Source of the DNA: Sebaldella termitidis ATCC 33386
GTDB lineage: Bacteria > Fusobacteriota > Fusobacteriia > Fusobacteriales > Leptotrichiaceae
NCBI RefSeq assembly: GCF_000024405.1
Contig: NC_013517.1
Location: 4,247,989-4,311,988, forward strand
DNA: 64,000 nucleotides
Direction: 5' to 3'
The first letter of the stretch is position 1; each line of letters starts with the position of its first letter. The translations under genes and the position numbers were made by a program. A model generated the notes under the pieces. It was not told the origin of the DNA. It was given only the letters and a program-made list of their open reading frames with translations, and searched no databases. Positions 9,559 to 60,273 of the stretch are shown here, in pieces.

Positions 9559-9569
9559 ACTTATTCCTC

Positions 9570-9780: not shown

Positions 9781-9796
9781 CAACTTCACTTTATAC

Positions 9797-16877: not shown

Positions 16878-16938
16878 TTTTTATGCCGACTTACCCTAGA
16901 CATATCCCATCAAATTTATTTTCTGGATTCCATAACTA

Positions 16939-17093
16939 GACTCCTTCTAAGTTCGTCCTGAGCCCGTAGAGCATTTTTTATGGAAAAGACTACATTTGTT
17001 TCCCTGTCTCTGAAATTCGAAGAGCTTAAAATGGACTTGAAATAAAAGGAAAGGATAACATCAAATTAATGAGGCTATCCATCCTAACTTTAA
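16939..17093 (-). repeat. Dispersed repeat copy R3 with hairpin
   Basis: The best-preserved copy of the R repeat, adjoining the stop of the CDI immunity gene (17096). It shares with R2 the CTCCTTCTAAGTTCGTCCTG-like start, GAGCCCGTAGA, TTTTTTATGGAAAAGACTAC, CTGTCTCTGAA and GAGCTTAAAA. It ends with GGATAACATCA/TGAGGCTATCC (about 17051-17080), able to form a stem and probably terminate the cdiA-cdiI transcript. Confidence 0.8.
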
Positions 17094-17095
17094 GC

Positions 17096-17575: not shown

Positions 17576-17590
17576 ATCATAACCAACTTT

Positions 17591-37800: not shown

Positions 37801-40800
37801 GTAATCCTGCTGCTCCTATTTCATTGGCTCGTTTTGTATTTTCCAGGTATATTCCTGTTTTTCTTCTCATGTCTCCTGACGGAAGAACAGTATTAGAATC
37901 TCCCAGCAATATCTGACCAAGAATATTTATTCTTGCTCCGTCCTTGGCAAATACTCCTATTCCCTCTTCACCGGTAATATTCATATTCGCAGTTCCGTGA
38001 TTTAATGTAAGTACTCTTTCATATGTAGTATTGTTGTTTCCATTCAGATAAAGTCCTACACTATTTTCACCGGTTACTTTTATCAGATCGTCCTTTGTAG
38101 TAATATTAGCATCCTCTGCATAGATTCCTGCTCCGTTTTTCTTTACTTCTATCTGACCGTTGTTTGTTATATCCACAGTTTTACCATATATTCCATAGTC
38201 ATTTTCTGTCAGCGTTATTTTCCCTGTATTTATCAGTTTTGTCAGATTAGCTGCTGTTGTCTGTGCTCCTTTAGCATAGATTCCAAGAATAGCATTTTCT
38301 GATGCTGTTATTCCTGATACATTTCCCACAGTAATATTCAAATCATTAGTAAGAGTTTTTCCTACTGCTCCTTCATAATACAACCCTGTTCCGAATTTTC
38401 TTGTTGTTGCAGATGACGGGTCAGCATGATTGTAAAGTACTGTCAATTCTGATGCCGGTCCGGTATTCAAAGTAGACATATCATCTTTCAGATTTAAAGC
38501 TACTCCGTTTTCTCCTACTTTTATCGAATAGTTACCGTCCAGAATTACTTTTGAATTTTCCACAAGTACTCCGAAGCTTTCTTTTCCTACTGTTATATCT
38601 GCTCCTGAAGCTGGTGCAGTTGTTTTAAGAGTTAATTCTCCCCCTTGTGTTGTCCCTTTTATGTATACTCCCACACTTTTATCACCAAGAACTATTTCAC
38701 CGTTATTCAATACGGTTACTCTGTTTCTGGCTGCTCCTGTATTATTATCTGCATAGATTCCTATAGCATTCGATGAAGGTGTTGTTCCTCCGTCATATAT
38801 TTTGATTGTTCCTTTATTCTCAATTTCTATTACTTTTTGTGTTGTCGGCGTACTTCCCAGATCTGTCCCGAATGTATCTGCTGTAGGTACTCCCAAAGAA
38901 TTTATTTTTCTTGATAATCCTACTATTCCTACTCCGCCTTCTGTTGCACTTGTTTTTCCTGATATCTGGATTAGTCCTTCGTTTACCAGCTTACTTCCGT
39001 TTACTCCGTATACTCCTACACCTTTGTTTACTATGATTTCTCCTGTTGCCTTATTATTTATCTGTCCGTAGCTTACATAGGCTCCTGTATTTGCTCCTGC
39101 TCCTCCGGAAATACTTATTTTTCCATTTACTGTATACCCTGCTTCTGTATTATTTACAGCTTTAGAATTCGACCCGATAGCAAGTCCGTTTCCTGCTGCT
39201 GAACTTATTGTCTTGGAAGCTCCTATATTTACCATTACTCTTTCCATTATCAAGTCGTTAAATCCATCTCCTGCTGTAGATCCTGACGATATGCTGTCTC
39301 TGTTTACATTCGTTGTTACATTTAGAACTGCTCCGTCAAGTGATGTTTTATACCAGTAACTTCCTGTGTTTATTGCTGCTACTTTAGGGAAGTTTCTAAG
39401 ACCTGTTACAGGATTATTCAAGAAGTCATCTGTTCCGTCCCATGTCAGAGTTCCAGGATTTACGAATACTCCGAGGTTTACTCCGTGATTTTTAAGATTT
39501 ACCGTTACCTGACTCATTCCTGTATATCTTCCGCTTTCTCCTGCAAGCTTTGCTCCTGAGGAATAATCAATTTTTGAACCGTAGAATACTACACCGTCAT
39601 AGACATTCATTGTTGTAGCACCTTTGAAATTTATATTTGAGCCTGCTGTTTCATCTGCATAAAATACCAGCTTTCCTTCATGAGAATCTGTATATGTATC
39701 TTTATGCTCTATTGTTCCACCACCGAAATTTACCTTTCCTTTTTCCAGTGCTATGAGGGCTCCGTTCTGTCCCGTGTTAATTATACTTCCGCCGCCCTGA
39801 ATATCTACAAGAGCTCCTGTACCTTTAGCAAAAGCTCCTACTCCGTTTACGTTAATCTTCCCAGAAATTTTTATTTCAGCACCATTCACTCCGTTTTTAA
39901 CCACTGCTGCCGCTGCTGTATTATCATTAACCATATCTGTACCGGGTGCTATATTTCCAAGAGCATCTCTTTTAGGTCCCTGCTTTGTTGCTGTTATATC
40001 TCCTGTTACTGTTATTTCCGTCTTTGGAAGAACTGAGCTGTGTGATATTACATTTCCTGCTGCATCTGTAATTGTCGGTCCGTAATATGCATCCTCGGAA
40101 CTCCATTTTATCCCTCCGGCATTTGTATTTCCAGTACCTGTATGATCTGAGTTTCCGTCATATATCGTATTTCCTTCTTTGTCCTTTATCACTTCTGTAC
40201 TGCTTAATGTTGCCGCCTTATGATTTTCTGCGTATGCCATTGCACCTGTAGAACCATATCCGTTCAAAGTCAGTGATTTTGTAGTTATATATCCTCCGTC
40301 TTTAGCATAAAAAGGAACTGATTTTATTGAATTTACAGTTGCATTATTTGTGATATTAATTGTACTTCTGAATTCGGGCACATAATACTTTCCGCCCTGC
40401 TGTGATAATATCCCGTATGCTATTCCTCTCCATACATAAGAGGAGTTTTGAAGTCCTCTTTGTCTCGGGTTAAACCAGACTCCCTCAGCATAAGCAAGTG
40501 TAGACCCTATTGCCGTAGAGCTTTCATCAGTCCCTGACACCATCGGTGCATTATCAGTTACATTTGAACTCCAGTCTACCACACTTCCGTTTCTTGATAC
40601 CACTGCAATATTATCTTTTGAATATTTCCCGAATGTTACCTTAAAATCATTCAGGTTTACTGATTTTATTCTGGCTTCTGATCTGACATTTCCTGCACCG
40701 TCAAATATATATGCCTGACCTGCAGTTGTTGCCACAGTAAAAGCACCCACACCATCTCCTGTGTAAGTAGTCCCGAGTAAAGGAGTTTGTTGACTGTTGA

Positions 40801-43099
40801 AATTTCTATATTCCGTGTATCTTTCAGTAGCAGGATAAAGCATTTTTACGTTCAATTCCGAACGCTGTCCGCTGTCTACTATCATTCCCACAGAACTTTC
40901 AGCTCTTTTGGTATCTCCGCCGCTCAGATTTCCGTCACTGTTTTGTTCCTGTACTGCTCCTGATGACAGTTTATTTCCAAAACCGAAATTAAGTTTTAGT
41001 GTTCCGTTAAATATACCATTGGAAGCAGGAAGTAAATTATTTCTTCCAAAATATATTCCTACATTCTGGTCTCCGCCGAATTCTATGCTCGACTCTATAT
41101 TATTTACCGGATTATATGCAGGAGCGGCGTCATTCTTATTTCCCAAAACTGCTGCATTTATTCTGATGGCAGCGTTTTTTGCTCCATACATATTCACTGT
41201 TCCTGTATTTTTATAGTCAATTGCCCCAAGGTACGGAAGATATACATATTGTTTGAACCATTTTCTTCCCATTTCAGCCGGATTTGACATTGCAGCATCA
41301 TTTCCGGGATCATTATGTGAATTATCCACTTTTAAAATTACAGTTTCCGATTTTGATATATCAATATTATTGTCCATTACAAAACTAAACTGCCCTGACT
41401 GATTTATATCAGCATGACTGTTTGCTCCCGTACTGCTGTTTAATGAAAAGAATGTATTTTTACTTCCGTATACATTAACATTTGTTCCTGTAAAATCAAT
41501 TTTGGCTGCACTCTGTCCAAGAAGTCCCGCAGTTATCGCAGCACTTCCGTACATATTCAGGTTTGAATGCTTCATAGAAATAGTACCTGTTGTATATGTA
41601 GTGTTCATTAAAGTCGCTCCTGCGCCAAAATGAGCTTCTATCCCGTCAAACACAGGATTATGATATCCATATGTCGTAAATATAGTCGTATGTGCCTGCT
41701 CCACAGCCCTGTTATTATCTATAGTAAATGTCTTCCCATTTGCAGCCAGCTCATTGGCATCAGGACTGTAACCGGGCATATAATCTGCTGCTGTGATAGG
41801 ATCTGTATATCCTGTATAATTTCCTCCGCTTTTATTAAGAAGCTTTCCTGCTACTCCGTTCCATCCCGAAAGTACTTTATTCCCGGCCGTTGATCTTACT
41901 GTACCGTCTTTATCTGTTAATGTTACTGTCTGTCCTGTAGTGGCTATGCTTCCATTTATTGCTACGAATTTTCCGCCTTTTGCTCCTACCTCATTAAACA
42001 GCGGTGATGTTCTTTCGCTGTGTACCTGAGTTGTCGCTGCTCCTACTGCTCCTGTCCCGTAGTTTCTTCTTGGAGTACTGTCAAAATTATTGTGCAGAGA
42101 CATAGATATTTTATCTACAGATAAATAGTTTCTGTAGTAACTTCCTCTTCCCAGCCAGTTTTGCCCCGGTGCACTGTAAGGATCCCACTGAGGTGCATAC
42201 ACTGCAGGTGCCTGAGGTACATCAGGATTTGCTCCCTGTATGCTCGGCGGTGTTACTGGTGCCACATTAAGACTCGGAGGCGTAAGATTCAGAACCGGAG
42301 GCTGTACATCTGTAAATATAGGCGTTTTTACGTCATTTACATTTACATTTACATCCACCAATATTGTTCCTATATCTATATTCCCCGGTGAATTAAGTGC
42401 TACTGCCGGTACGCTGCTCACTGTTCCCGGTGCCGTTACATTTACTGTTATTGGATTTACTGTCACTGGTGCCAGTGTTACATTTGGTGCCGGCGGCACA
42501 AATGGTGCATTTATCGACGGCAGTTCCACCTGAGGTGTCAGCGGTGTTTCTACCTGCGGAACCTTTATTGTCGGTATTATTGTAAATGTTGCCGTATTAT
42601 CATAGATATCTGTATTTGTTGTCCATGCGTGTCCGTCTTCCCCGCTTGTATTTGTTTCTGTTATCCAGCCGGTCGTCCCCTGACGCACACTTGATAATCC
42701 CAAAAAGCTTCTTAAAAGAGCTCTTTCCATATCTTGTGAAGTATTTTCCCTGCTTCCGTATTTCCAGTCCTTAGACTGGCTGTCCATATCCTTATATCCG
42801 AAAAGTGTCGAAAAAATGTAGCTTTCCCATGGTGACTTAATCACCTGATCTCCTTCATTTTCCAGACGTTCGAGTTCTAATCTGCTGTATTTCAGCTTCT
42901 TTTTATTTTCCTGTCGCAATTTTTGTATCTTTTTTTCAAGATTTTTTGCTGTAACTGTGAGATCAAGATTCTCACTTGCATTGATAAAACTTCCTGTCAT
43001 CAAAAAAGTTAAAGCAAGCCCTTTTGAAAACTTGAAATTCTTATTATGCTTCAAACCGGATTTCAATTCCTTCTCCACACGTTCCAAAATATTCTTCAT
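31847..43099 (-). CDS. Giant type V autotransporter (3750 residues)
   Basis: One uninterrupted 11.25 kb frame. The N-terminus (MKNILERVEKELKSGLKHNK, then GLALTFLMTGSFINAS) is the extended signal region seen in fusobacterial autotransporters. A coiled coil (NLEKKIQKLRQENKKKLKYS) and a conserved WESYIFSTLFGYKD segment follow, then a Pro/Val-rich stalk (about residues 175-300, PTIKVPQVETPLTPQVELPS). The passenger from about 330 to 3400 is glycine/asparagine-rich beta-helix sequence with dozens of IGIYAxNG / GVGVYxxG / NxGxI turns. The last ~270 residues form the outer-membrane barrel (GINYHDMERKIYLSNGTYKN region), ending YQLDFSWKF with a terminal Phe. AAGGAAGGG precedes the start. Likely a surface adhesin; receptor unknown. 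Confidence 0.93.
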   Translation of the reverse strand: MKNILERVEKELKSGLKHNKNFKFSKGLALTFLMTGSFINASENLDLTVTAKNLEKKIQKLRQENKKKLKYSRLELERLENEGDQVIKSPWESYIFSTLFGYKDMDSQSKDWKYGSRENTSQDMERALLRSFLGLSSVRQGTTGWITETNTSGEDGHAWTTNTDIYDNTATFTIIPTIKVPQVETPLTPQVELPSINAPFVPPAPNVTLAPVTVNPITVNVTAPGTVSSVPAVALNSPGNIDIGTILVDVNVNVNDVKTPIFTDVQPPVLNLTPPSLNVAPVTPPSIQGANPDVPQAPAVYAPQWDPYSAPGQNWLGRGSYYRNYLSVDKISMSLHNNFDSTPRRNYGTGAVGAATTQVHSERTSPLFNEVGAKGGKFVAINGSIATTGQTVTLTDKDGTVRSTAGNKVLSGWNGVAGKLLNKSGGNYTGYTDPITAADYMPGYSPDANELAANGKTFTIDNNRAVEQAHTTIFTTYGYHNPVFDGIEAHFGAGATLMNTTYTTGTISMKHSNLNMYGSAAITAGLLGQSAAKIDFTGTNVNVYGSKNTFFSLNSSTGANSHADINQSGQFSFVMDNNIDISKSETVILKVDNSHNDPGNDAAMSNPAEMGRKWFKQYVYLPYLGAIDYKNTGTVNMYGAKNAAIRINAAVLGNKNDAAPAYNPVNNIESSIEFGGDQNVGIYFGRNNLLPASNGIFNGTLKLNFGFGNKLSSGAVQEQNSDGNLSGGDTKRAESSVGMIVDSGQRSELNVKMLYPATERYTEYRNFNSQQTPLLGTTYTGDGVGAFTVATTAGQAYIFDGAGNVRSEARIKSVNLNDFKVTFGKYSKDNIAVVSRNGSVVDWSSNVTDNAPMVSGTDESSTAIGSTLAYAEGVWFNPRQRGLQNSSYVWRGIAYGILSQQGGKYYVPEFRSTINITNNATVNSIKSVPFYAKDGGYITTKSLTLNGYGSTGAMAYAENHKAATLSSTEVIKDKEGNTIYDGNSDHTGTGNTNAGGIKWSSEDAYYGPTITDAAGNVISHSSVLPKTEITVTGDITATKQGPKRDALGNIAPGTDMVNDNTAAAAVVKNGVNGAEIKISGKINVNGVGAFAKGTGALVDIQGGGSIINTGQNGALIALEKGKVNFGGGTIEHKDTYTDSHEGKLVFYADETAGSNINFKGATTMNVYDGVVFYGSKIDYSSGAKLAGESGRYTGMSQVTVNLKNHGVNLGVFVNPGTLTWDGTDDFLNNPVTGLRNFPKVAAINTGSYWYKTSLDGAVLNVTTNVNRDSISSGSTAGDGFNDLIMERVMVNIGASKTISSAAGNGLAIGSNSKAVNNTEAGYTVNGKISISGGAGANTGAYVSYGQINNKATGEIIVNKGVGVYGVNGSKLVNEGLIQISGKTSATEGGVGIVGLSRKINSLGVPTADTFGTDLGSTPTTQKVIEIENKGTIKIYDGGTTPSSNAIGIYADNNTGAARNRVTVLNNGEIVLGDKSVGVYIKGTTQGGELTLKTTAPASGADITVGKESFGVLVENSKVILDGNYSIKVGENGVALNLKDDMSTLNTGPASELTVLYNHADPSSATTRKFGTGLYYEGAVGKTLTNDLNITVGNVSGITASENAILGIYAKGAQTTAANLTKLINTGKITLTENDYGIYGKTVDITNNGQIEVKKNGAGIYAEDANITTKDDLIKVTGENSVGLYLNGNNNTTYERVLTLNHGTANMNITGEEGIGVFAKDGARINILGQILLGDSNTVLPSGDMRRKTGIYLENTKRANEIGAAGLLTVGKDNIGVYLNNSNLKNSGKISVENGAAAQNIGIYAFAKDKSGVADSFTLENTGTIEVNGLKNIGIYGKTDSGVSGNQGTINLSSGKINVTASDPLTAANVPLGVYVKGENINVASTSSVTKISENGIGVYLEGNSTLGKAGGVFNGDFTLKSAANSKPAIGAYFKDGAQALSGNIKVVSTGTASDSSGNPIRPIGLFYAANTGTLNNGVNITLANDGVTLNQETIGIYAAKVADMNNTGNIIINANAKGIGGYFKETNLVNTGNVTVNADGAFGLYMKADGITASVSSNAGIIAANNKDSVGIILDDKAELTNTGTISSNSGGTASQSGSIGAYVTNQGKFINDNTGNLTSTAALSGANPGSVGIYTKNGIVENKGNITSEYLGIYGEKDSSLSSSNTLITHEGSLNVNSGIGIYTKDTGTKTNLKSGGTITGTTASLAGVMAYDKAEATLDGTNISLTGDYSNAVILGNSISNTDKSSLTLKAGNITVGKEGTAIYSKNGNITIDSGYTGLITIGEKGTGVYADRNTTIGAGTLETVYSHGTNKGVGIFYDGGTQNNQVTVKQHAGNNNLINIYAQDIALVNNADQEVSQNGIGIFIKGPGIASTLENKKELSLTGSDSVGIVTETGSSVIAAGKITGVNGEHDKIGVYVKGGDISGTSAYDFDIDGGIGMYLNNAVSYTGTMDLKGGIYDNGTKYRTIGILAAPSFGTGTLAANIDMTGAGGIGVYQETGTNVTYNGKIDLLGTSTLIDQGIGVYTKNGSTFTLGSLGEVKVGGTNNIGFYVEAGGTLNISGGTVTNTEDGIFAYLEGGSMTFTSGSSNINYANVIVASGGSLVNQTTIATGKTGLQATGVSSLLVPSTILNDTGGVINSSTLSAVAMTGLDGAYIDNKGKISLTGDGAIGIYVRNAKGVSSGEVNINEKSVAYYANQAGGELTITGTSNIGKHSTLLAVENGGKINYQSGAINLGDERYGALIDGAASVIDFGGNDITVGEKSVAVMLQNGGQLNNTLHNINVGKAGVGIYLADATNIISPASRTINLSENATGIYGDNGGNIQLDGNILSVSDGAKGIASKNSALSTIENAGNIDLSGKASVGMYGEGIDTIKNNAGKTIKVGESNTATGKAGVALFGLNSSALLNEGTLEFGKGAAGIYGENISSGIENRTGAMITNNGQTNGTGIFAKNSLVENRGDILLGDTSNGIYAENGQIDNYGNVTAGNEKSSGLFGAGTAAVNHNSGTVTVGANSVALASENGNIINNSILTSTGEGSTYIYSKNGNGETNAALTLTDKSVGMYGQSGVMTNNNIITVGKSDVAAKEFSVGMATESGKIVNSAGAQIIVGKEAGVGMFASGVEVKHPDGTTTYGPSGTAENYGTIDVTGLKAYGMLGTNGATVYNAATGIINVDGTGAKGIIGTNDANIINDGIVNVNGAGSQGIYIERGATLTNTGQINVNGDGKIGVFIGMGSSFVNTAGITISSGGTTVFDGGGTLANIGDIVIDGPTATVNGITINNTGKIEITGSLDFTGNILLETTPGKAGTINVGGLSGTGHIILSPDATLGNNYDMHHVQLLGGLSNPETETIRVTSQSVSFIAEKYFDKDLNSYVLTLTRIPYAQMLKNTEAVEFGKGLDELHSKGPGDTEMDMFDALKSVSDKDELAETFDMQLRGNVYANIQQRMMDVSGVLDTAYKQLKSEENTTKDITKVSAIYSGGNITDKNPGVEEYDYQSLGIMYLKEKETLKYGTNFNYSLGILQSKFDFDQGSKEDITSLKAGIGYEQYLKQGSRFKYMTRGELGVNYHDMERKIYLSNGTYKNNGDYFSGTAEWKNRLNYELPIISKNFKMDIFGSLNTGYGKFQGFKEDGDGMYLDVKSEDYFSLRPGAGVEGEWSYTTVKGSKFMLTAGAAYEYETQDIYGDGNEVKIANTDAGYYRLEEPEKIDNIFKANVGVGYETSGGFKTGVRVEREEGSVKGTKYQLDFSWKF

Positions 43100-43841: not shown

Positions 43842-43875
43842 AAAACAAAACAGTCCCTACAATAAAGTAGGAACT
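43842..43875 (-). terminator. Terminator of the 43.9-51.9 kb ABC importer cluster
   Basis: AGTCCCTAC (43852-43860) pairs with GTAGGAACT (43867-43875), 9 bp with one G-U pair on the minus strand. There it is followed by GTTTTGTTTTTAG. It lies about 70 bp past the last permease stop. Confidence 0.7.
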
Positions 43876-43942
43876 GCTTCTAAAGTTTCCTGCAAGTTTA
43901 TCTATTATTATTCTTCATAACCGTCAATATTTTTCATTAAAA

Positions 43943-44770
43943 TTATTCTTTCATTCCGGAAGTCATCATTCCGTTTATTATATGTTTTTGAAATATCAAA
44001 AATATAATCAGCACAGGTATCATTGATACTACTGAAATTGCAAGAAGACTGCTCCAGTCTATATTATTTTCACCGGCAAAATTTGATATTGCCAGCTGTA
44101 ATGTATATTTTTTCGGAGTACTTATTACCAGTAACGGCCAGATAAAATCATTCCATCTCCACATAAATGAAAAAATTGTGAGTATTGCTATTACCGGTCT
44201 GGCAAGCGGCAGTATTATCCTGAAAAATATCGACCACTCGGAAGCTCCGTCTATTCTCGCTGATTCTATAAGTGAGTCAGGCATTGATAAAAAATACTGT
44301 CTCATCAAAAATATTCCTGTAGGCGTAGCTGCCGGAGGTATAATTATTCCCCAAAGACTGTCATAAAGCCCCATTTTATTTATTACAGTAAAGGTTGGAT
44401 TCATTATGAGCGTAGTTGGTATCATTGTCGTACACAAAAATGCTACAAATATTATGTCTCTTCCCTTAAATTTATACTTTGCAAATGAATATCCCGCCAT
44501 TGTATTTATTATTACAGTTATTATCGTAGAAGTAACAGTAACAAAAACTGTATTCATAAAATATATACCAAAATTTCCTGCTTTAAAAGCCTTCGCATAA
44601 TTTTCAAATGTAAAGTTTTTTGGAAATATTGTAGGAGGATATGAAAACAGCTCTGAAGGTCCTTTAAAAGAGCTTGATGCTATCCAGAAAACAGGAAACA
44701 GCATCAGTATAAACATCATAAAAACTACAGTAATGCAGACTATTTTCATATTTTTGTCCGTTTTTCCCAT
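43943..44770 (-). CDS. Carbohydrate ABC transporter permease (MalG type)
   Basis: A 275-residue inner-membrane permease with six hydrophobic segments. The EAA loop that docks the ATPase is SARIDGASEWSIFF near residue 180, and the MalG-class segment GYSFAKYKFKGRD is also present. It is the last gene of the cluster and overlaps the preceding permease gene by one base (TAATG). It imports an oligosaccharide, probably uronate-containing, judging from the GH105 gene in the operon. No ATPase gene lies in the cluster. Confidence 0.93.
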   Translation of the reverse strand: MGKTDKNMKIVCITVVFMMFILMLFPVFWIASSSFKGPSELFSYPPTIFPKNFTFENYAKAFKAGNFGIYFMNTVFVTVTSTIITVIINTMAGYSFAKYKFKGRDIIFVAFLCTTMIPTTLIMNPTFTVINKMGLYDSLWGIIIPPAATPTGIFLMRQYFLSMPDSLIESARIDGASEWSIFFRIILPLARPVIAILTIFSFMWRWNDFIWPLLVISTPKKYTLQLAISNFAGENNIDWSSLLAISVVSMIPVLIIFLIFQKHIINGMMTSGMKE

Positions 44771-45645
44771 TATTCTACTGCACCTCCTTTAGCTGCCTTA
44801 AACTGAATGCTTGTAAATATAAATAATATTATAAACATAAATATTGATGCAGCACTTGCATAACCTACATTCAGTTTTTCAAATCCCTGCTGATATATAT
44901 ACTGTATCATAAGGGTAGTACTTGTCCCCGGCCCTCCGCCTGTAAGAGATAATATCAAAGGATATTCCTTAAAAGCATCTATTGCTCCGAGCATAAGTAC
45001 CAGAAATATTGTAGGCTTTAAAAGCGGAAGTGTAATATTAAAAAATATCTTTATTCTGCCAGCACCGTCTATCTTTGCTGCTTCATAATATACCTCCGGA
45101 ATACTTTCAAGACCACCCATAAAAATCACCATAAAAAATCCTGCCCGCGACCATATTGTGGCCATTACTATTGCTATTTTAGACGGAAGACTGCTTGTCA
45201 GCCATGCTACCGGCTGCATATGAAGCCTTTCAAGAAAGTAATTTAATACTCCGAAATTATTTCCCAATATCCATTTCCACATTAACCCTACTATTATTCC
45301 TGATATCATTACCGGCCAGTAGTAACCCGCCCTAAAAAGTCCTTTAAACGGCAGAAATTTTTGTATAAGCAGTACAGCCATCATAAGTGAAACCACAAAA
45401 AGCAGCGGTACAGTACAAATCACATAAAAAAATGTATTTTTTATTACTGTCCAGAATAACGGATCTTTTAATAATTTTATAAAGTTGTCAAATCCCACAA
45501 AATTCATGGTTACTAAACCGTCATAATCAGTAAATGCATACTGAAATGCAATTATTACAGGAATTATAAAAAATAACAAATAAATAATAAAATTCGGCAA
45601 TAAAAATAAATAAGGTGTTATACGCATTCCAAAAGATTTTTTCAT
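44770..45645 (-). CDS. Carbohydrate ABC transporter permease (MalF/UgpA type)
   Basis: A 291-residue inner-membrane permease with six hydrophobic segments beginning ITPYLFLLPNFIIYLLFFII. The EAA loop is YEAAKIDGAGRIKIFF near residue 205, followed by the GGPGTSTTL segment typical of MalF/UgpA partners. It forms the heterodimeric channel with the overlapping MalG-type permease. AGGAGG precedes the start. It follows the 806-residue enzyme gene by 49 bp. Confidence 0.93.
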   Translation of the reverse strand: MKKSFGMRITPYLFLLPNFIIYLLFFIIPVIIAFQYAFTDYDGLVTMNFVGFDNFIKLLKDPLFWTVIKNTFFYVICTVPLLFVVSLMMAVLLIQKFLPFKGLFRAGYYWPVMISGIIVGLMWKWILGNNFGVLNYFLERLHMQPVAWLTSSLPSKIAIVMATIWSRAGFFMVIFMGGLESIPEVYYEAAKIDGAGRIKIFFNITLPLLKPTIFLVLMLGAIDAFKEYPLILSLTGGGPGTSTTLMIQYIYQQGFEKLNVGYASAASIFMFIILFIFTSIQFKAAKGGAVE

Positions 45646-45694: not shown

Positions 45695-48115
45695 TCAGAC
45701 TCTTAAAAATACCTTTTCCTCTTTCTCCACTCTAAAACCATTTTCCCAGTCCATGCTCATTTTTCCATGTTCAAAATCAATTATTTCCATATACAGCTCT
45801 CCGGCAGTAATTTTCATATTACAAAATCTGTCTGTAAATTCCTGAAAACTTCCGGCTTCTTCCTTTGTCATTACCTTTACAAACCATATATTAGCCAGCC
45901 CTTCTGATACTATTTCATTATTTTTCAATGGCCCGCTGTCAGTTATTTTATACGGATTTTTTATATAAATACCTGTATAAACAGTGTCTTTTCTAAGAAA
46001 AATCATATTTCCCCGGAAAATATATTCGTCGAAATCTTCAAACGGACAATAGGCATGTGTAAAATCTACCATTTGATCCTCTGATATTCTAAACATAAGA
46101 AAAACATTATTTTCGTATTGTTCCACCATTGGTACTGTCCCGTTTCCGGCCCAGTAACTCGGTCTTCCTGCTCCATTCAGTTCTTTTTCTCCCGGATGAT
46201 TTATCCAAAACTGTATATCATGATCCTTTGTTATATTCAGCTGAAAAATATGTTCCTGATGCCCGTTTTTTCCTTTTCTGTAATCCAAAGCCGAAGAAAT
46301 AGAATAATCCTTTGTTTTACACATATAAAGATTTACCTTTTCTTTACCCTGTACATTACTTATAATAAGCCTCCTGTTTTGTTCCCATTTTTCATATTCC
46401 AAAAGTTTTTCAGGAGGCTCATAAGATGAAATGCAAAAAAATACTGTGGACATTATACTCTGGTTTAAGTAGCCTTCCCCCCATGCAATCCAGTTTAATG
46501 CTGTAGATTCTGTAGTTCTTCTGCCTTTCAGCTCTTTCTCATATATCCTTCCATGGCTTGAAGTCATGACTCCTTTAAAGCTGTTAAATGCCATTATTTC
46601 AAAGGAATGATCCAGAACACGGCCTGCTTTTTCTTTTATCTCCTTATCCTCTGTTAATTCATAAAGAGCAAAGCACCCGATTAAATCAATTGGTATATAG
46701 ACCGCTGAGTTCCATTCGCCATATCCATACAGAAAAAAATTCGAAAACCATTCGTTTAATAATTTTTTAGCTTTTTCTATGTGCTGAAAACCGGTTAATC
46801 CGCTGTTAGGAAATATATCCTGTTTAAACTGCTCTCCGGCAAGAAGCTCTGATACGTGAAATGACAATGCATGATTTTCGCTAAACCACCACATCACATC
46901 ATTTCCCGGTTCATCAAGCCAGTATCTGTAATTCAGTATACTCTCTTTTATTATCTTCAGATCATCTTCTTTAAAATGATTCCTGTATTTTTTATAAATC
47001 CATATTAAAGCCGGCATTCTAAAGTCACTGCAGTCGAACCTCCGGTTTATAGCATCTGTTTCTAAATCCAAAATCTCCTTTATTCTGCTGTATTCTCCGT
47101 TATCTTCTATAATAGCAATAACTTTCTGAAGATTTCCGTCGCCGTATTCCGACATGAATTTCAGTGCTTCTTTTTTTCGTTCTTTTATATTTTCTATATT
47201 TTCCGGAAAATTTTCCATAATATAAATCTCTGTTCCCAATATTCTTTCAATTATAATATCCTTGCTTAATCTTATCTGTAAAATCACGGAAATATACCCT
47301 ATATTCAGTTCTTTTGGGATACTGAGCACCAACTTTGTTTCCCCTGATTTCAATGTTGCTTTTCCTGCAGGTATCTTAGTATCCAGATGTGTATTATTAA
47401 CATAGAATACTGTATCAATCTCCAGATTTTCATTATGAGATGCAGTAAATAATACCTTTATTTCTCTGTCTCTGTAGCTGTTTTTATCCAGATAACAGCT
47501 TTTCAGTATCTTTTCTGCCACAGCTGCCTTGCTGATATCACCTGTTACAGAAATAAACGTATTTAATTCCCCTTCATCTTTATATTTCATCTGGAAATAA
47601 ACATTCGCATCTCTTTCAGCAAGATCGTTACACCAAACTGTAATTTCATTAATACCTTCTTTAAATTCCAGACTTATCTCGGTACTTTTTCCGAGATTTC
47701 TTTCATATGGTGAAAAATCAGCCTGTTCTTCACCATTTACCCATATTTTTGCCCTTCCGCAGGTTTTTATTTCAAAATTTTTCCTTTTATTTTTACCGGT
47801 AATTATAAACATTTGTGCGAAAAAATTAAGTTCATAACATTCTTTCCAGAAACCGGAGTAATCTATTCTTGCTTTTTCAAATGGAAAATAAACTTTATTA
47901 ATATCTTTCATTTCAATATCTTCATAATTTTTATCAGGTATATTTTCAAGATATCTTTTTCTTACAGGATAAATTATCTGAACATAACCTGCCCCTTCAT
48001 TAAGGGCTGTATCAAAAGCCTCAGGCTCTGTGATAAATCTTTTTTCCTCCAGCTTTGACACAGTCCATCTGTCAATAAAATCATTTTTTTTATAACTAAA
48101 ATCCCATTTTCCCAC
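45695..48115 (-). CDS. Uncharacterised 806-residue cytoplasmic enzyme, probable alpha/alpha-toroid carbohydrate-active protein
   Basis: Starts at a GTG (MGKWDFSYKK) after AAAGGAG and has no signal peptide, so it should act in the cytoplasm. The N-terminal ~300 residues look like beta-sandwich (KIWVNGEEQADFSPYERNLG resembles sugar-binding sandwich domains). Residues about 370-600 are helical with conserved-looking clusters: MWWFSENHALSFHVSELLAG, YGYGEWNSAVYIPIDLIGCF and SSHGRIYEKELKG, holding His, Glu, Asn, Tyr and Arg suited to catalysis. The C-terminal part is beta-rich. Similar hypothetical proteins exist, but I know of no assigned activity. Its place between a binding protein and permeases, with GH105 upstream, suggests a lyase or hydrolase acting on imported oligosaccharides. 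Confidence 0.72.
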   Translation of the reverse strand: MGKWDFSYKKNDFIDRWTVSKLEEKRFITEPEAFDTALNEGAGYVQIIYPVRKRYLENIPDKNYEDIEMKDINKVYFPFEKARIDYSGFWKECYELNFFAQMFIITGKNKRKNFEIKTCGRAKIWVNGEEQADFSPYERNLGKSTEISLEFKEGINEITVWCNDLAERDANVYFQMKYKDEGELNTFISVTGDISKAAVAEKILKSCYLDKNSYRDREIKVLFTASHNENLEIDTVFYVNNTHLDTKIPAGKATLKSGETKLVLSIPKELNIGYISVILQIRLSKDIIIERILGTEIYIMENFPENIENIKERKKEALKFMSEYGDGNLQKVIAIIEDNGEYSRIKEILDLETDAINRRFDCSDFRMPALIWIYKKYRNHFKEDDLKIIKESILNYRYWLDEPGNDVMWWFSENHALSFHVSELLAGEQFKQDIFPNSGLTGFQHIEKAKKLLNEWFSNFFLYGYGEWNSAVYIPIDLIGCFALYELTEDKEIKEKAGRVLDHSFEIMAFNSFKGVMTSSHGRIYEKELKGRRTTESTALNWIAWGEGYLNQSIMSTVFFCISSYEPPEKLLEYEKWEQNRRLIISNVQGKEKVNLYMCKTKDYSISSALDYRKGKNGHQEHIFQLNITKDHDIQFWINHPGEKELNGAGRPSYWAGNGTVPMVEQYENNVFLMFRISEDQMVDFTHAYCPFEDFDEYIFRGNMIFLRKDTVYTGIYIKNPYKITDSGPLKNNEIVSEGLANIWFVKVMTKEEAGSFQEFTDRFCNMKITAGELYMEIIDFEHGKMSMDWENGFRVEKEEKVFLRV

Positions 48116-48205: not shown

Positions 48206-49423
48206 TTATTTTTTCAGCTCAGACCATTTTTCCTTTAGTTCAGTCATTGCCTGTACTGGTGTTCTTTCTCCCTGAATAGCATATACGATATAATCTCTCA
48301 TCATATTTCCTGCTGCTTTATATTTTTTTATCATTTTTTTGTCATTAGGACTTAATTCAGGTGTATTCACAATTTCATTATCAAGAATATCAAAAAATTC
48401 CTGACCGTAGTCATAAGACGGGTGTACGCTTAATTTCCCGGATATATAGGCTCCGTCTTCACAATACTGCTTATAATTCTCGTCCTGATAAAACCACTTA
48501 ATGAATTTTTTTGCCTCTTCAAGATCAGGTGACTTAGTAAATGCTACAAGAAAATTTCCGCCTGCTATTGAAGATCTGTTTTTTTCTTTCGGCATATATG
48601 CTATTCCCCACTCAAAATCTTTTATATCATTTTTATATTCATTTATTTTCCAGCTTCCCGAGTAATATGCAGGAATAGTTCCTGTTTTGAAAAGATTGCT
48701 TGCATCTTCCCCGCCAAGCCATACATCATCAGGCATTACCTTATCTTTATGAAGCTTTATAAAATAATCAAGAGTTCTTATACTGTCAGGCTGATCTACC
48801 ACTATATCCCCGTTCTCATCAAATATTCTTCCTCCAAACTGATAAAGCATTGTCTGATATCTGTTCTGAGAAAAGTCCATTACCATTCCGTATTTTAAAC
48901 TGTTCTTTTCTTTCACGGTATTTAATGCCTGCACAAATTCATCCCATGTCCAGATATTATCCTGTGAATCAGGTACCTTTACTCCTGCCTTATCAAATAA
49001 TGTTTTATTATAAATAAGCCCGTTTACTGTTAAATTCAAAGGTACTCCCAAAAATTTCCCGTCCATAAGATTTTCTTCCATTTTATCTGTAAAATCAGCA
49101 GGATTCACTGTATCTGAGAGATCTGCCAAAACTGTTTCAAATTCATCTATATTTGATGTTCTCATAAGAGCCGGCGCCTTTCCTCCTGCTACCATTGTCT
49201 TTACTTTTGCTCTTACACTGTCATAAGGAAGTTCTATAAGATTTATTTTTATTTCGTCCTGTGAATTATTATATCTTTCCACTGCCTTTGCCATGGCTCC
49301 CCCTTCAAGGGAATCATCAGATATTATAAAATCTATTGTTTTTACCTTGGAGTCTCCCCCTCCGCATGACACTAAAATGAATATTGAAAATACCATAAGT
49401 ATGAGTACTTTTAAATTTTTCAT
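48206..49423 (-). CDS. Sugar ABC transporter substrate-binding lipoprotein
   Basis: A 405-residue family 1 solute-binding protein. The lipoprotein signal MKNLKVLILMVFSIFILVSC has a lipobox LVSC, so it is membrane-anchored outside the cytoplasm. Typical segments are DNIWTWDEFVQAL, FKTGTIPAYYSGSWKINEY and SPDLEEAKKFIKWFYQDENY. It is distinct from the 50.6-51.9 kb binding protein, so this cluster has two receptors, perhaps for different oligomers. AGGAG precedes the start; a 129 bp spacer with two hairpins separates it from GH105. Confidence 0.92.
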   Translation of the reverse strand: MKNLKVLILMVFSIFILVSCGGGDSKVKTIDFIISDDSLEGGAMAKAVERYNNSQDEIKINLIELPYDSVRAKVKTMVAGGKAPALMRTSNIDEFETVLADLSDTVNPADFTDKMEENLMDGKFLGVPLNLTVNGLIYNKTLFDKAGVKVPDSQDNIWTWDEFVQALNTVKEKNSLKYGMVMDFSQNRYQTMLYQFGGRIFDENGDIVVDQPDSIRTLDYFIKLHKDKVMPDDVWLGGEDASNLFKTGTIPAYYSGSWKINEYKNDIKDFEWGIAYMPKEKNRSSIAGGNFLVAFTKSPDLEEAKKFIKWFYQDENYKQYCEDGAYISGKLSVHPSYDYGQEFFDILDNEIVNTPELSPNDKKMIKKYKAAGNMMRDYIVYAIQGERTPVQAMTELKEKWSELKK

Positions 49424-49552: not shown

Positions 49553-50593
49553 TTAGTTATAAAATTTTTCCGTATCTTCCAAAGCTAAAACTGCCAGAAT
49601 CATCAGACCCTGTCCGTAAGGAGTTTGACAGAATCCGATATTCTTATAATGTTCGCTGTCATATCCCATTGCCGTTCCGGCGGAAACCTGCTTCAAAGAA
49701 CCATCCTCCCCAAGGTAGTTGCTTACTATATAACGTACTGCCATATATGAATTCAGATAATGACTTTTATCAATCGCCCCGTACTTCACTCCTGTAAGTA
49801 TCCCATAGGCAAACCCTGCTGTAGCAGAAGTTTCAAAGTAAGAATCCTCGTCATTTATAATTGTACGCCACATACCTGATATGTCCTGATACTTTATCAA
49901 CGCTCCGACCTGTCTTTTATACGCTTCTTCCAGCAGCCTCCTATCAGTCATACTTATTTCTTCCACTATTGTTAATATTTCCGGTATTGCTATAGTTATC
50001 CAGCAATTACCTCTTCCCCAGAAAATACCTCCGAAATGTCTCTCTGTAAGTGACCAGCCATGATACCACAGTCCGCTTTCACAGTCAGAAAGATATTTTA
50101 TATGGATTATAGTCTGATATACAGCCTCATCCTGCATTTTTTGATTGTTCAAAACCATTCCCGCTCTTGCGAGGAATAGTATTGTCATAAACAAAGTATC
50201 TGCCCACAGTTGGTCATTATTTATAGTATGCGTAGTCAGATGCTGCATTCCGCCTTCCACTGTTCTGGGCATTTTGTTCATAAGCCATTCGGCATTTTCC
50301 TTTATCACTTCCAGATAATCAGTATTCTTTTCTGCCTCGTATAAATAAGTCAGTGCCAGTAAAGGAGACATTGTATTTATATTTTTATCAAAGCCCTTTC
50401 CAAGCATTTTCTCGTACCATCCGTTTAAAAATTCCAGACATCTTTTATCACCTGTTGCTTCATATAGTTTATATATTGAAAATAAGCCTACCCCCTGCTC
50501 CCATTCCCATCTATATACAGGTGTTATCCCCTCATCCTCTTCCAAAGCTGTAAGTCTCTCATAGAGCTTGTTCAAGACCTCTGTTTTATCCAT
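49553..50593 (-). CDS. GH105 (YteR-like) unsaturated uronyl hydrolase
   Basis: A 346-residue alpha/alpha-barrel glycoside hydrolase of the GH88/GH105 group, without signal peptide (cytoplasmic). It removes the 4,5-unsaturated uronic acid from the end of oligosaccharides made by polysaccharide lyases. Landmarks: RWEWEQGVGLFSIYKLYEAT near residue 27, NNDQLWADTLFMTILFLARA with the catalytic Asp near residue 128, and WGRGNCWITIAIPEIL with conserved Trp/Arg/Asn. Length fits YteR/YesR-type enzymes. Whether the substrate is rhamnogalacturonan- or glucuronan/glycosaminoglycan-derived is not decided by sequence. It is flanked by two binding-protein genes. Confidence 0.9.
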   Translation of the reverse strand: MDKTEVLNKLYERLTALEEDEGITPVYRWEWEQGVGLFSIYKLYEATGDKRCLEFLNGWYEKMLGKGFDKNINTMSPLLALTYLYEAEKNTDYLEVIKENAEWLMNKMPRTVEGGMQHLTTHTINNDQLWADTLFMTILFLARAGMVLNNQKMQDEAVYQTIIHIKYLSDCESGLWYHGWSLTERHFGGIFWGRGNCWITIAIPEILTIVEEISMTDRRLLEEAYKRQVGALIKYQDISGMWRTIINDEDSYFETSATAGFAYGILTGVKYGAIDKSHYLNSYMAVRYIVSNYLGEDGSLKQVSAGTAMGYDSEHYKNIGFCQTPYGQGLMILAVLALEDTEKFYN

Positions 50594-50622: not shown

Positions 50623-51927
50623 TTATTTGCTTATCTGGGCAATGACTTTTTCAAGCTCTGCATACATTTGTTCCCCTGCCTGTTCAGGAGTTAATTCATT
50701 GTAATCTACTTTTTGTGTATACATCATTCCTATTTTTCTTATTCTTTCATCTTCTATAAAAGGACTTGATTTTGGTGCTGCAAAAGCAAGAGCTTTTTCC
50801 AGACCTTCCGGTACTATCCCTTTTAATAATCCTTCCTGATCCAGAGTTTCTATTGCTTTTTTATTCGATGGTATTCCTCTGCTGAGTCCCAGAATTTTTA
50901 CAGCCTCAGGATCAGATAGTAAAAAGTTCAGGAATTTTGCAGCCTCTTTAGGATGCTTTGTGTTTTTATTTATTGCAAGAGCCATGTTTACCTTTACAAA
51001 TGCTGATTTATTAGGTCCTATTCCTGTTAACATATCACCAATTATAAGTTCGTTTCCTTCGCTTAATGTGTCCTGATACTTGCTTATCGCTGAATTCCAT
51101 TCATAAACTCCTCCGACCTTTCCGCTTATCCACAATGGATTCTGTTCTCCCGGCACATTTCCCGCACCTGCGTTATCTTTACTTGATAGTACTACACCTT
51201 CATCCACGAGCTTTTTATAAAACTGTATTGCTTCTGTTAATTCCTCTTTTGTAATTCCCATTTTATTATCACTGTCTATCAGGGATTTTCCGAATTTCTG
51301 CTCTACATAATATTTCAAAAAGAACAATACTCCGCTGTCAGTTGTTGAAATATCCAGAGCATATGTATCATTGCCGAATTTTTCTTTTAAGATTTTTGTA
51401 GAAGAAATCAATTCATCTGCTGTTGCAGGTACCGACAGCCCGGCTTTTTCATATAGTGCTTTATTGTAATAAAATACCCTTCCGTTCATTCCTACAGGAA
51501 TAGCAGGTACTTTTCCGTTAATTGTAGTGTAGCTCAAAACATTTTCATCATAATTTGAAAGATCAAAGTCTTCTTTCAAATCATTGAAATTATAAAAACC
51601 ATCACCGTTTTTTGAAAAAATATAAAGCCAGTTCCAGTCTATCTGCATAATATCAGGTGCAGTATTTCCCGTAACCTGTGTTGATACTTTCTCAAAATGC
51701 CCGTCCCATCCCGAATACTCAGCTTTTATCTTTATTCCGGGATTTTTTTCCTCGAATAATTTTATTGCATCAAGTGTTGCTTTATGTCTCGAATCTCCGC
51801 CCCACCATGAAAATCTCAGTACAACTTCTTTTTCTCCGCCGCCGTCTCCTGCTGTATCTTTCTTTTCACCACAGCTGATTATCAGTCCTAACATTAATAC
51901 CATGAATAAAAATAATTTCTTTTTCAT
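50623..51927 (-). CDS. Sugar ABC transporter substrate-binding lipoprotein, first gene of the ROK-controlled operon
   Basis: A 434-residue family 1 binding protein with lipoprotein signal MKKKLFLFMVLMLGLIISC (lipobox IISC). Segments RFSWWGGDSRHKATLDAIKL, FEEKNPGIKIKAEYSGWDGH and NTKHPKEAAKFLNFLLSDPE recur almost unchanged in the binding proteins at 62070-63371 and 63511-64000, showing recent duplication. Its promoter carries a XylR-like palindrome just past the -10 box, and the ROK regulator gene is divergent, so sugar-dependent derepression is expected. Confidence 0.93.
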   Translation of the reverse strand: MKKKLFLFMVLMLGLIISCGEKKDTAGDGGGEKEVVLRFSWWGGDSRHKATLDAIKLFEEKNPGIKIKAEYSGWDGHFEKVSTQVTGNTAPDIMQIDWNWLYIFSKNGDGFYNFNDLKEDFDLSNYDENVLSYTTINGKVPAIPVGMNGRVFYYNKALYEKAGLSVPATADELISSTKILKEKFGNDTYALDISTTDSGVLFFLKYYVEQKFGKSLIDSDNKMGITKEELTEAIQFYKKLVDEGVVLSSKDNAGAGNVPGEQNPLWISGKVGGVYEWNSAISKYQDTLSEGNELIIGDMLTGIGPNKSAFVKVNMALAINKNTKHPKEAAKFLNFLLSDPEAVKILGLSRGIPSNKKAIETLDQEGLLKGIVPEGLEKALAFAAPKSSPFIEDERIRKIGMMYTQKVDYNELTPEQAGEQMYAELEKVIAQISK

Positions 51928-51999: not shown

Positions 52000-52018
52000 G
52001 TTAGTTTGGTAAACTAAC
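52000..52018. promoter_or_regulatory. XylR/ROK-type operator
   Basis: Perfect 8 bp inverted repeat GTTAGTTT-GGT-AAACTAAC. The half-site TTAGTTT matches the known XylR operator half-site of Bacillus-type ROK repressors. It lies in the divergent region, directly over the expected transcription start of the binding-protein operon, as repression would require. Confidence 0.8.
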
Positions 52019-52024
52019 ATTACA

Positions 52025-52052
52025 ATTATATCGTTATTTTTGATTTTGTCAA
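52025..52052 (-). promoter_or_regulatory. Predicted promoter of the ROK-controlled ABC operon
   Basis: Perfect TTGACA (52047-52052) and perfect TATAAT (52025-52030) on the minus strand, 16 bp apart. The expected start site falls within the operator palindrome at 52000-52018. Confidence 0.75.
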
Positions 52053-52125
52053 TATCTGATATAAAAAAATCCGCAATTGATTTTTTTTTCTTATAATGTT
52101 ATTATTAAATAGATTCGGAGGTACT

Positions 52126-53298
52126 ATGGAAATTGCAGATTCTAAATTTATAAAAAATATAAACCGGGCTATTATACTGGAAGAAATAATAAAAAATGAA
52201 CCGGTTTCCAGATCAGATCTGGCTAAGATTACCGGTCTAAATAAAGTTACCATTTCATCACAGATATCTGATCTTCTTGATGAAAAATTACTTATAGAAA
52301 AAAAATCGGAAAATTCTCCCGGAACTTCAGGCGGTAAAAAGCCTATTTTATTATTTCTGAATAAAAAATGCGCGTATTCTCTGGGACTTGAACTGAAAAA
52401 AGACTCCATCTCTTCTGTTCTCACTAATTTAAACGGAGAAATAACACAGAAAGAAGCTTTTTCTGTGAAAAAAACTTCCCCTGAATTTATTGCAGATAAA
52501 ATAGAAGAAATTTTTAAATATTATACTAAAAGTATAAAAAATTCCAAATTTGGAATTATCGGTCTTTCTGTGGGAGTCCACGGAAAAATAGATAAAAATA
52601 ATATTATTATTGAATGCAACAATTTAAAATGGAAAAATATTAATTTAAAAAAAATGCTGCAAAAAAAGTTTCCCGATCTGAATATTAATATAAAAAATAA
52701 TAATTATTTTTCAGTGCTTGCTGAAAAATCTTTTTATGATATTCCTAATGATCCGTTTATTTTTCTGAATATGTCTGCAGGAATAGGCATGGGAATAGTT
52801 ATTGATAATAATATTCTTCTGGGTGTAAACGGTCTCAGCGGTGAAGCCGGTCATGTTTCAATAGAACTGAACGGAAGAAAATGCTATTGCGGCAGAAGAG
52901 GCTGCTGGGAAACATATGCATGTGAAAATGCATTTTTTAAAGATTTAAAAGAATTGAAAAAAAAGAATATTTCTTATGATAAATTTTCAAAAATGCTTGA
53001 TAATAATGAAATAGATGAAGAAATTACTGCGCTTCTTGCCGATTATGAGAATTATATTTATTCCGGACTTCTCAGTATCATTAATATTTTTGACCCGAAG
53101 CTGATTTTGATATATAACAGGATTCTTAATATTTATCCTGCTCTTGTAAAAAATCTTAAAAAGAAGATTTATAAATATAATAAAATAGAAGCTTCTATTG
53201 AATTATCTGAATTAAAGGAAGATTCATGCTGTCTTGGAGCATGTATTTCAAATATACTCGGTTTTTTGAACATTAATTTTTTAAAGCTGAAAAAATAA
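52126..53298 (+). CDS. ROK-family transcriptional repressor (NagC/XylR type)
   Basis: A 390-residue regulator. The N-terminal helix-turn-helix is EPVSRSDLAKITGLNKVTIS, followed by an SPGTSGGKKP wing. The C-terminal ROK sugar-kinase-like domain has the glycine-rich NMSAGIGMGIVIDNNILLG and GLSGEAGHVSIELNGRKCYC, then CGRRGCWETYA: the zinc-binding CxCGRRGCxE motif with its preceding His. The start at 52126 follows GGAGGT; the upstream frame to 52096 lacks a ribosome site. It is divergent from the ABC/GH105 operon with an operator between them, so it most likely represses that operon until a sugar binds. A small secreted-protein gene follows closely. Confidence 0.92.
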   Translation: MEIADSKFIKNINRAIILEEIIKNEPVSRSDLAKITGLNKVTISSQISDLLDEKLLIEKKSENSPGTSGGKKPILLFLNKKCAYSLGLELKKDSISSVLTNLNGEITQKEAFSVKKTSPEFIADKIEEIFKYYTKSIKNSKFGIIGLSVGVHGKIDKNNIIIECNNLKWKNINLKKMLQKKFPDLNINIKNNNYFSVLAEKSFYDIPNDPFIFLNMSAGIGMGIVIDNNILLGVNGLSGEAGHVSIELNGRKCYCGRRGCWETYACENAFFKDLKELKKKNISYDKFSKMLDNNEIDEEITALLADYENYIYSGLLSIINIFDPKLILIYNRILNIYPALVKNLKKKIYKYNKIEASIELSELKEDSCCLGACISNILGFLNINFLKLKK

Positions 53299-59215: not shown

Positions 59216-60253
59216 CTAGCATCCTTTTTCCAGAGTTTCCCATATTCCCAGAATGTACACTGCTCCAAGAGCTCTGTCATATAATCCGTAACCCGGTCTT
59301 CCTGTTTCTCCCCAGATCATTCTTCCGTGATCCGGTCTGGCATAACCGGTAAAGCCTGTTTCTTTGTATGCTTTTAATATCTCCACAAAATCCAGCGAAC
59401 CATATTTTGACATATGGGCGCTTTCCTGAAAACTTCTGTCATCTATTATTTTTATATTTCTTAAATGTGCAAAATGAATCTTTTTACCAAATCTTCTTAT
59501 CATTCCCGGCATATCATTGTCTCTTGCCACTCCAAGTGAGCCTGTACATAGTGTAAGTCCGTTATATTCACTGTCATAAAGCTTAAGAAATCTGTCTATA
59601 TTCTCCTCATTTGTTATAATTCTGGGAAGTCCGAAGATAGGCCACGGCGGATCATCAGGATGTATTGCCATCTTTACTTTTACTTCCTCAGCTACCGGAA
59701 TTATTTGTTCAAGAAAATATTTCAGATTATTCCATAAATCTTCTTCAGATATCTCCTTATATTTATCCAGTATCGCATTCAGTTCTTCTTTTTGGTAACT
59801 TGCATCCCATCCGGGAAGAGAAAGTTCACCCTTTCTCGGATCCATCTTTTCTATTTCATCTCTGTAATAAACAAGGGCAGTAGAACCATCAGGAAGTTTA
59901 TAATCCAGATTTGATCTTGTCCAGTCAAAAACCGGCATAAAATTATAGCAGATGACCTCTACTCCTGCTTTAGCAAGATTTCTTATATTTTCTTTATAAT
60001 TTTCTATATATTTCTCTCTTGAAGGAAGTCCCATCTTAATATCTTCATGTACGGGAACACTTTCTATTACCTTCATTTCCAGATTTTTTACATTTACCTC
60101 TTCTTTTAGTTCTGTTATTTTATCAAGAGGCCACACCTCACCTACAGGAATATCATAAATCGCAGTTACCACTCCTGTCATCCCCGGTATCTGACTTATA
60201 TATTCCAAAGAAACAGGATCAGTCTTTCCGTACCATCTAAACGTCATCTTCAT
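59216..60253 (-). CDS. uxuA: Mannonate dehydratase (UxuA)
   Basis: A 345-residue TIM-barrel enzyme that dehydrates D-mannonate to 2-keto-3-deoxygluconate. Conserved pieces: [70 protein letters not shown] and [13 protein letters not shown], which carry the Cys and His metal ligands. I chose 60253 because AGGAGG precedes it; the longer frame to 60385 overlaps the permease gene. It is 20 bp after the MalG-type permease gene and shows the importer feeds the hexuronate pathway. Confidence 0.95.
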
Positions 60254-60273
60254 ATTATTATTTCCTCCTGTTA

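Follow-up and report, generated by a model that had tools for sequence, protein, structure and literature searches.

The 806-residue protein, its operon and its relatives

The subject of this study is a gene of Sebaldella termitidis ATCC 33386 (4,486,650 bases in three contigs) which codes for a protein of 806 residues and lies in a window of 64,000 nucleotides, that is, the whole stretch of DNA that was analysed (contig NC_013517.1, positions 4,247,989 to 4,311,988; positions below are those of the window). It is a genuine gene, as a first-pass annotation made from the DNA letters had assumed: its GTG start codon is closely preceded by AGGAG, a ribosome-binding site, its operon has clear boundaries, and it has hundreds of full-length relatives (in GTDB contigs the number of confirmed relatives is 538). 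Residues are numbered here with the GTG-encoded Met as 1; the first residue is 2 in the full-chain model and alignment A2, and 301 in the core model and alignment A3.

The operon runs from a consensus promoter and a perfect palindrome through the genes of the first solute-binding protein, a GH88/GH105 family hydrolase, the second solute-binding protein, the 806-residue protein and two CUT1 permeases of the ATP-binding cassette (ABC) type to a terminator-like hairpin (Table 1), so that the GH105 gene and the two-receptor ABC system of the first-pass annotation were both recovered. The palindrome, GTTAGTTT-ACC-AAACTAAC, has one exact copy in the genome, the one found here, and it is probably the operator of the divergently transcribed ROK regulator. 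According to the list of open reading frames (ORFs) of the window and their translations there is no ATPase gene within the operon, therefore a shared ATPase encoded elsewhere would have to serve the importer; a secreted lyase is likewise missing from the operon. The genome holds three PF07470 (GH88) genes in its 4.49 Mb, and one true KduI gene, which is located at C1:721323, away from the operon.

The relatives were collected by a scan of GTDB contigs with peptide patterns around the stretch Arg397-Pro403 and Gly404-Trp410, hence the choice of the patterns by itself ensures that those residues are conserved. The best 80 of the 538 relatives entered the locus survey (loci with L numbers), and 50 of these together with the window copy make up the 51 members of alignments A2 and A3; the 30 loci omitted were near-duplicates or had truncated or shifted frames, among them L087 and L055, whose extracted frame started at a non-start codon. 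Relatives were found in Rhizobiaceae, Bacillota, Spirochaetota, marine Gammaproteobacteria and, as a partial match, on one haloarchaeal plasmid (Haladaptatus). A tblastn search of plasmids gave 200 records, 195 of them with at least 80% query coverage, mostly from Rhizobium and with listed identities of about 27-31% over most of the length; further matches came from Pseudosulfitobacter, Photobacterium and Catenovulum. Both among 60 relatives of this genome and among 98 Fusobacteriota genomes (profile search) the gene is present in this genome only, thus S. termitidis has probably acquired it by transfer. In a tree of the 51 cores the window copy clusters with Eisenbergiella and a metagenome-assembled genome of Spirochaetaceae (support 100/97).

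None of the 51 members has a signal-peptide-like leader by a hydropathy scan: the maximum over 12-residue windows in the first 45 residues exceeded 2.0 in 0/51, whereas five substrate-binding protein controls reached 2.16-3.33. Both binding proteins of the operon have lipoprotein-like leaders, the 806-residue protein and the GH88/105 hydrolase have none, and the cytoplasmic location suggested earlier is in agreement with these results.

No catalytic Pfam family was matched in the 51 members at E 0.01. PA14 was matched in 10/51, the NCBIfam scan gave two single weak matches only, and an APH_6_hur Pfam match (E 0.12, 12.2 bits against a cut-off of 27) was rejected as noise. PF07940 (Hepar_II_III_C) was not matched in any member at the same threshold. 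When the protein was compared with the PDB sequences by phmmer nothing was found, and profiles A1, A2 and A3 matched no lyase at E<=10 among all PDB sequences (the solved members of PL17, PL12, PL35, PL39 and PL8 stayed unmatched); A1 gave one nucleoprotein (E 1.2), and the designed beta-propellers and one other chain that A2/A3 returned (E 0.26-2.3) were judged noise. PHROGs and phages gave no match, nor did a viral contig scan. In Pfam, NCBIfam and the PDB the family is new at the sequence level, as had been supposed, while the structural and mechanistic kind proposed for it is known; no confident match to an established CAZy family appeared in these searches. In the literature searched, which covered few subscription journals, no publication on the family was found.

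Table 1. Features of the operon and of the 806-residue protein (window positions)
Feature	Position	Strand	Basis or remark
806-residue candidate uronide lyase ORF	45695..48115	-	GTG start; AGGAG directly 5' of the start
N-terminal jelly-roll, sugar-binding-like, like the GH2 N-domain	47570..48091	-	model residues 8-181; PA14 in 10/51
(alpha/alpha) toroid + C-terminal beta-sandwich core (predicted)	45698..47215	-	506 residues, modelled alone
Asn414-His415 (SENH)	46871..46876	-	proposed carboxylate neutraliser/base, N-terminus of a toroid helix; 51/51
Tyr473	46697..46699	-	proposed catalytic acid/base at the first position of the next same-phase toroid helix; 51/51
Arg523-Ile-Tyr525 (GRIYE)	46541..46549	-	Arg and Tyr invariant, just before a further toroid helix
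His640 (NHPGE), beta-domain	46196..46198	-	48/51; candidate counterpart of the toroid-lyase beta-domain His
Solute-binding protein 1, lipoprotein-like, first gene of the operon	50623..51927	-	Pfam SBP_bac; hydropathy
GH88/GH105 family hydrolase	49553..50593	-	PF07470 (E 1.3e-84); nearest NCBIfam model 'BglB', 368 bits, below the cut-off of 420
Solute-binding protein 2, lipoprotein-like	48206..49423	-	Pfam SBP_bac; hydropathy
CUT1 ABC permease	44770..45645	-	BPD_transp_1
CUT1 ABC permease	43943..44770	-	BPD_transp_1
Divergent ROK/NagC-type regulator	52096..53298	+	Pfam and NCBIfam
Consensus promoter TTGACA-16-TATAAT (12/12), 5' of the operon	52025..52052	-	
Perfect 8-3-8 palindrome, just past the -10 box	52000..52018		likely operator
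Terminator-like hairpin and T-run, after the last permease gene	43847..43880	-	

Predicted fold and candidate active site

The sandwich-like N-terminus and the helical core described in the first-pass annotation were both found in structure predictions of high confidence. The AlphaFold2 model of the full chain (51 sequences) had a pLDDT of 91.2 and a pTM of 0.91, the core modelled alone a pLDDT of 92.5. In VIA-align comparisons of the full chain residues 8-181 match GH2 sugar-binding domains (Z about 9), and from residue ~306 onwards the chain matches toroid lyases (GAGase VII with Z 11.2, DSE1 with 10.7, Alg17c with 10.3). Membership of GH2 itself was considered and rejected: GH2 is ranked first in the whole-chain Foldseek list, yet with TM-scores of 0.10-0.16 and a root-mean-square deviation (rmsd) above 18 A, only residues 8-181 match, and the core alone, which is a toroid and not a TIM barrel, leads to lyases.

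The comparison with toroid lyases and glycoside hydrolase families, proposed in the first-pass annotation, gave toroid uronate lyases as the only strong structural matches of the core. All 12 Foldseek matches in the PDB at E<=0.001 are uronate polysaccharide lyases, namely PL35 (GAGase II and VII), PL15 (Atu3025), PL12, PL17, PL39 and a chondroitinase. By VIA-align the core reached Z values up to 11.8 over 418-424 residues at an rmsd of 5.7-6.1 A (PL17 Alg17c: Z 11.8, rmsd 6.1, 424 aligned), with PL35 GAGase VII at Z 11.4 (rmsd 6.2, 404 aligned), and the toroid and the beta-sandwich were aligned jointly to the lyases over residues 2-499 of 506. The predicted core, a toroid domain followed by a C-terminal beta-sandwich, has the architecture of the superfamily of polysaccharide lyases with an (alpha/alpha)n toroid and an antiparallel beta-sandwich; according to the model it shares this architecture with the toroid lyases at long distance and is a member of none of their families. 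The absence of a family such as PL27 or PL42 from the fold lists does not rule it out as a relative.

The first 43 matches of the VIA-align list are all polysaccharide lyases except the 13th, human dermatan sulfate epimerase, and this exception raises another possibility, a uronate C5-epimerase acting on oligosaccharides with the fold and the chemistry of dermatan sulfate epimerase 1. Few structures match the core better than human DSE1 does (Z 10.8, rmsd 5.4, 423 aligned), but the recurrent genomic partners, GH88/105 and KduI, handle unsaturated uronates, of which an epimerase makes none, and an epimerase seems to us very improbable.

Among the lyases the PL35 GAGases (8KHV, 8KHW) are the top Foldseek match of the core (E 9.8e-7) and have an Asn/Tyr/His triplet of a similar spacing class. 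According to PMC12088678, PL35 enzymes have a Mn site (His/Asp), glycosaminoglycan substrates and, in the case of GAGase II, a signal peptide; the Mn-ligand motif was not recognised in our family. The PL15 exo-oligoalginate lyase Atu3025 (PDB 3A0O/3AFL; exotype according to the PDB title), second in the Foldseek list of the core (E 1.2e-6), and the PL15 exo-heparinase combine toroid and beta-sandwich like the family core, but the profiles (which are shallow) have no detectable similarity, the family does not stand in an alginate context and the beta-domain His motif differs. PL17 Alg17c has the best VIA-align Z, and its Asn201-His202...Tyr258 resembles Asn414-His415...Tyr473 of the family; however, no sequence similarity was found, Alg17c has no GH2-like N-terminal domain, and the rmsd is about 6 A.

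The three sequence clusters singled out by the first-pass annotation are present (SENH 412-415, NSAVY 469-473, GRIYE 522-526), and in the model each of them lies at, or immediately ahead of, the beginning of one of three toroid helices that follow each other in the same phase (412-428, 472-486, 525-529), which should place them along one rim of the toroid. Asn414, His415, Tyr473, Arg523, Tyr525, Glu643, Arg651 and His687 are conserved in 51/51 members. As described in PMC12088678, the catalytic set of toroid lyases consists of Asn or His, Tyr and a beta-domain His, e.g. Asn192-Tyr246-His401 in GAGase II, Asn201-Tyr258-His413 in PL17, Asn240-Tyr294-His424 in PL12, Asn336-Tyr390-His555 in the PL15 exo-heparinase and Asn186-Tyr239-His405 in PL39. 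Asn414 and Tyr473 are 59 residues apart; in Table 4 of the same paper the Asn-Tyr spacing is 53-57 in seven rows of PL12/15/17/35/39, 59 in PL8 chondroitin AC lyase and 63 in PL23. The PL17 enzyme Smlt2602 was reported to be inactive when its Asn or its Tyr was mutated (PMC4765187). By analogy with that Table 4 we propose Asn414/His415 and Tyr473 as the Asn/His and the Tyr of the family. The candidate His640 is replaced by Asn in L020, L028 and L081.

A toroid-core glycoside hydrolase (or a phosphorylase-like enzyme) could also be imagined here, which would trim neutral or uronic sugars and prepare the substrate of GH88/105 without making a double bond. Toroid cores occur in hydrolases too (GH146 is the first non-lyase Foldseek match of the core, at E 7e-3, and GH9 stands lower in the list), many invariant core acids (D361, D364, D401, E402, D406, E413, E467, E643) could serve hydrolysis, and seven genomes with relatives have no clear GH88. 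Nevertheless lyases and an epimerase align with both the toroid and the C-terminal beta-sandwich at once, and the candidate Asn/His and Tyr, which resemble those of lyases, are invariant where they would be expected; we therefore regard a hydrolase as unlikely. From the "lyase or hydrolase" of the first-pass annotation the lyase is the part favoured by the predicted fold, and the hydrolase is kept as a rival only.

Genomic neighbourhoods of the family

The importer context, too, is common in the family. With small hidden Markov models built from confirmed neighbours, GH88 was detected at 58 of the 80 loci (within 5 kb at 56), GH28 at 36, the two permeases at 71 and 70, a binding protein at 70 and UgpC at 40, where the 80 loci are not independent (many are from Rhizobium) and some of the contigs are short. 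By hand count GH88 is present at 39/42 alphaproteobacterial and 19/38 other loci. Three GH88 genes in 4.49 Mb correspond to about 0.015 per 22 kb, thus adjacency by chance is low. The 22 loci without GH88 comprise 15 in genomes with an above-cut-off GH88 elsewhere and seven in genomes without one, so the coupling to GH88 is not universal.

On plasmids of Phyllobacterium, Shinella, Pannonibacter and Gemmobacter the order is LacI, GH88, KduI, the family gene, a solute-binding protein, permeases and UgpC, and in three of these four loci KduD comes next; a fifth plasmid locus in which KduI adjoins the family gene is that of Pseudosulfitobacter. In the plasmid locus of R. etli the family gene is followed by GH88, GH28, UgpC, permeases and ROK. 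The GH28 and GH88 proteins of A. tumefaciens B6 and R. etli exceed the NCBIfam cut-offs for PglB and BglB and are encoded in the same operon as the family gene; the PglB/BglB locus of A. tumefaciens is thus among the closest known systems (family gene, BglB-type GH88, PglB GH28, UgpC). Its large protein is annotated as hypothetical in R. etli, and no study of it was found in searchable papers. PglB (Atu4560) acts in polygalacturonate degradation according to a review (PMC6683767), and in a transcriptome comparison of tea with tobacco atu4559 is listed among the transport genes up-regulated on tea (PMC9138961). For Rhizobiaceae, the presence of GH28 PglB beside the family gene suggests oligosaccharides that contain galacturonides (pectic ones); this may not hold for other lineages.

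No known lyase was found among the scanned neighbour proteins, which were representatives of the commonest clusters only. The lyases of other organisms might also have given the imported oligosaccharides their unsaturated ends already; GH88/105 would then act alone, and the toroid protein would have a task unrelated to this (de-esterification or binding) or be a dead fold. Uptake of unsaturated oligosaccharides that have been cut beforehand is common, and the lack of a secreted lyase in the operon would fit it; but all 51 members, which come from three major phyla, have the active-site-like residues unchanged, and many genomes carry the family gene immediately next to GH88 and/or KduI, thus we hold this explanation to be improbable.

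Some further arrangements were recorded in the survey. In most of nine spirochaete loci (L030, L032, L033, L035-L037, L041, L043, L054) the family gene is nested between binding-protein and permease genes. Tandem pairs of the family gene occur in L013 (7543-12292) and L038 (7504-12160), followed by a binding protein and a PHP-domain protein, and L013 has a third copy at 16895-19390. Near GH88 lie genes for proteins of 553 and 588 residues (L017 3866-5527 and L074 12121-13887) with no Pfam match at E 1e-4. NF051900, 'beta-galactosidase BglB', recognises the GH88/105 genes at L002 14496-15587, L063 12495-13586 and L007 10041-11138; several of the GH88/105 genes matched by it adjoin KduI, and the name BglB may mis-state their main activity.

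Elsewhere in the window an inositol catabolism operon was found at 2016-10654 (IolE, IolG, IolD, MMSDH, IolB-like, IolC, aldolase). Its PF04962 gene at 7677-8465 was tried as KduI and rejected, since the nearest NCBIfam model is IolB (94 bits, cut-off 205), and it was not used as evidence of a uronate pathway. The gene cluster next to the operon of the 806-residue protein holds a mannonate dehydratase (UxuA, 59216-60385), so the window may have a second uronate-related locus. There are two giant ORFs, 31847-43099 (3750 residues; repeat-rich and, by eye, autotransporter-like) and 17591-26485 (2964 residues).

Proposed role of the protein

Taking the predicted fold, the invariant residues and the neighbourhoods together, we think it fairly probable that the 806-residue protein founds a new sequence family of intracellular toroid lyases acting on imported uronic-acid oligosaccharides. 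The residues that GH88/105 enzymes hydrolyse are 4,5-unsaturated uronyl residues, and the ketouronate set free in this way is processed further by KduI/KduD; that the toroid protein is the lyase of this pathway is the simplest account. The two lipoprotein receptors and the CUT1 permeases would import the oligosaccharide, which the N-terminal jelly roll may help to bind. The reaction would take place in the cleft that the toroid forms with the beta-sandwich: Asn414/His415 would neutralise the uronate carboxylate, while Tyr473 (possibly with His415 or Tyr525) would take the C5 proton and protonate the leaving O4. The 4-linkage would be cut by beta-elimination and the new end would be a 4,5-unsaturated uronyl residue, which the co-encoded GH88/105 would remove to give 5-keto-4-deoxyuronate for KduI/KduD. 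The substrates may be pectic or other uronides, and the specificity may be exolytic or for oligosaccharides.

Several observations weigh against this proposal. The structural match is distant (Z 11-12, rmsd 5-6 A), and according to VIA-align's own note mostly helical models can commonly give Z values below about 13. When A2 was compared by hhalign with seven small PF07940 sets (15 of 22 loci used, the long proteins L112 and L115-L120 left out), no similarity was found at the profile level, although the template profiles were shallow and this is weak evidence of absence. There are several candidates for the beta-domain His (His619 39/51, His622 46/51, His640 48/51, His687 51/51). KduI was found at only 7/80 loci and KduD at 8/80. 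Seven of the 80 host genomes have no GH88 above the cut-off (that of L014 has one weak match); four of the seven have a strong KduI and three have none. In the nine spirochaete loci mentioned above the family gene and the transporter genes beside it lie on opposite strands, with no GH88 nearby.

The L-rhamnose-alpha-1,4-D-glucuronate lyases of PL27 and PL42 offer a conceptual parallel to the proposed intracellular lyase: an exo-lyase of this kind exposes an unsaturated uronide for GH88/105. It may be speculated that GH88/105 and an exo-lyase would take turns neatly if the latter released the sugar to which a terminal uronate is 4-linked. Tentatively, we would go as far as to suggest that the family is possibly a new PL family, in which a cytoplasmic exo-lyase and GH88/105 dismantle acidic oligosaccharides in a two-step cycle without a secreted lyase, in rhizobia, agrobacteria and gut bacteria; rhamnose, for example, might be freed in this cycle from fragments of rhamnogalacturonan or glucuronorhamnan.

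If the lyase assignment is true, a function would be given to a 'hypothetical protein' of hundreds of rhizobia, agrobacteria, bacilli, clostridia and spirochaetes, and the toroid lyases would gain a family. It would also provide the source of the unsaturated substrate for the adjoining GH88/105, some of which are labelled beta-galactosidase BglB by NCBIfam. Since the agrobacterial and rhizobial locus holds PglB, the hypothesis bears on the use of cell-wall uronides by plant-associated bacteria.

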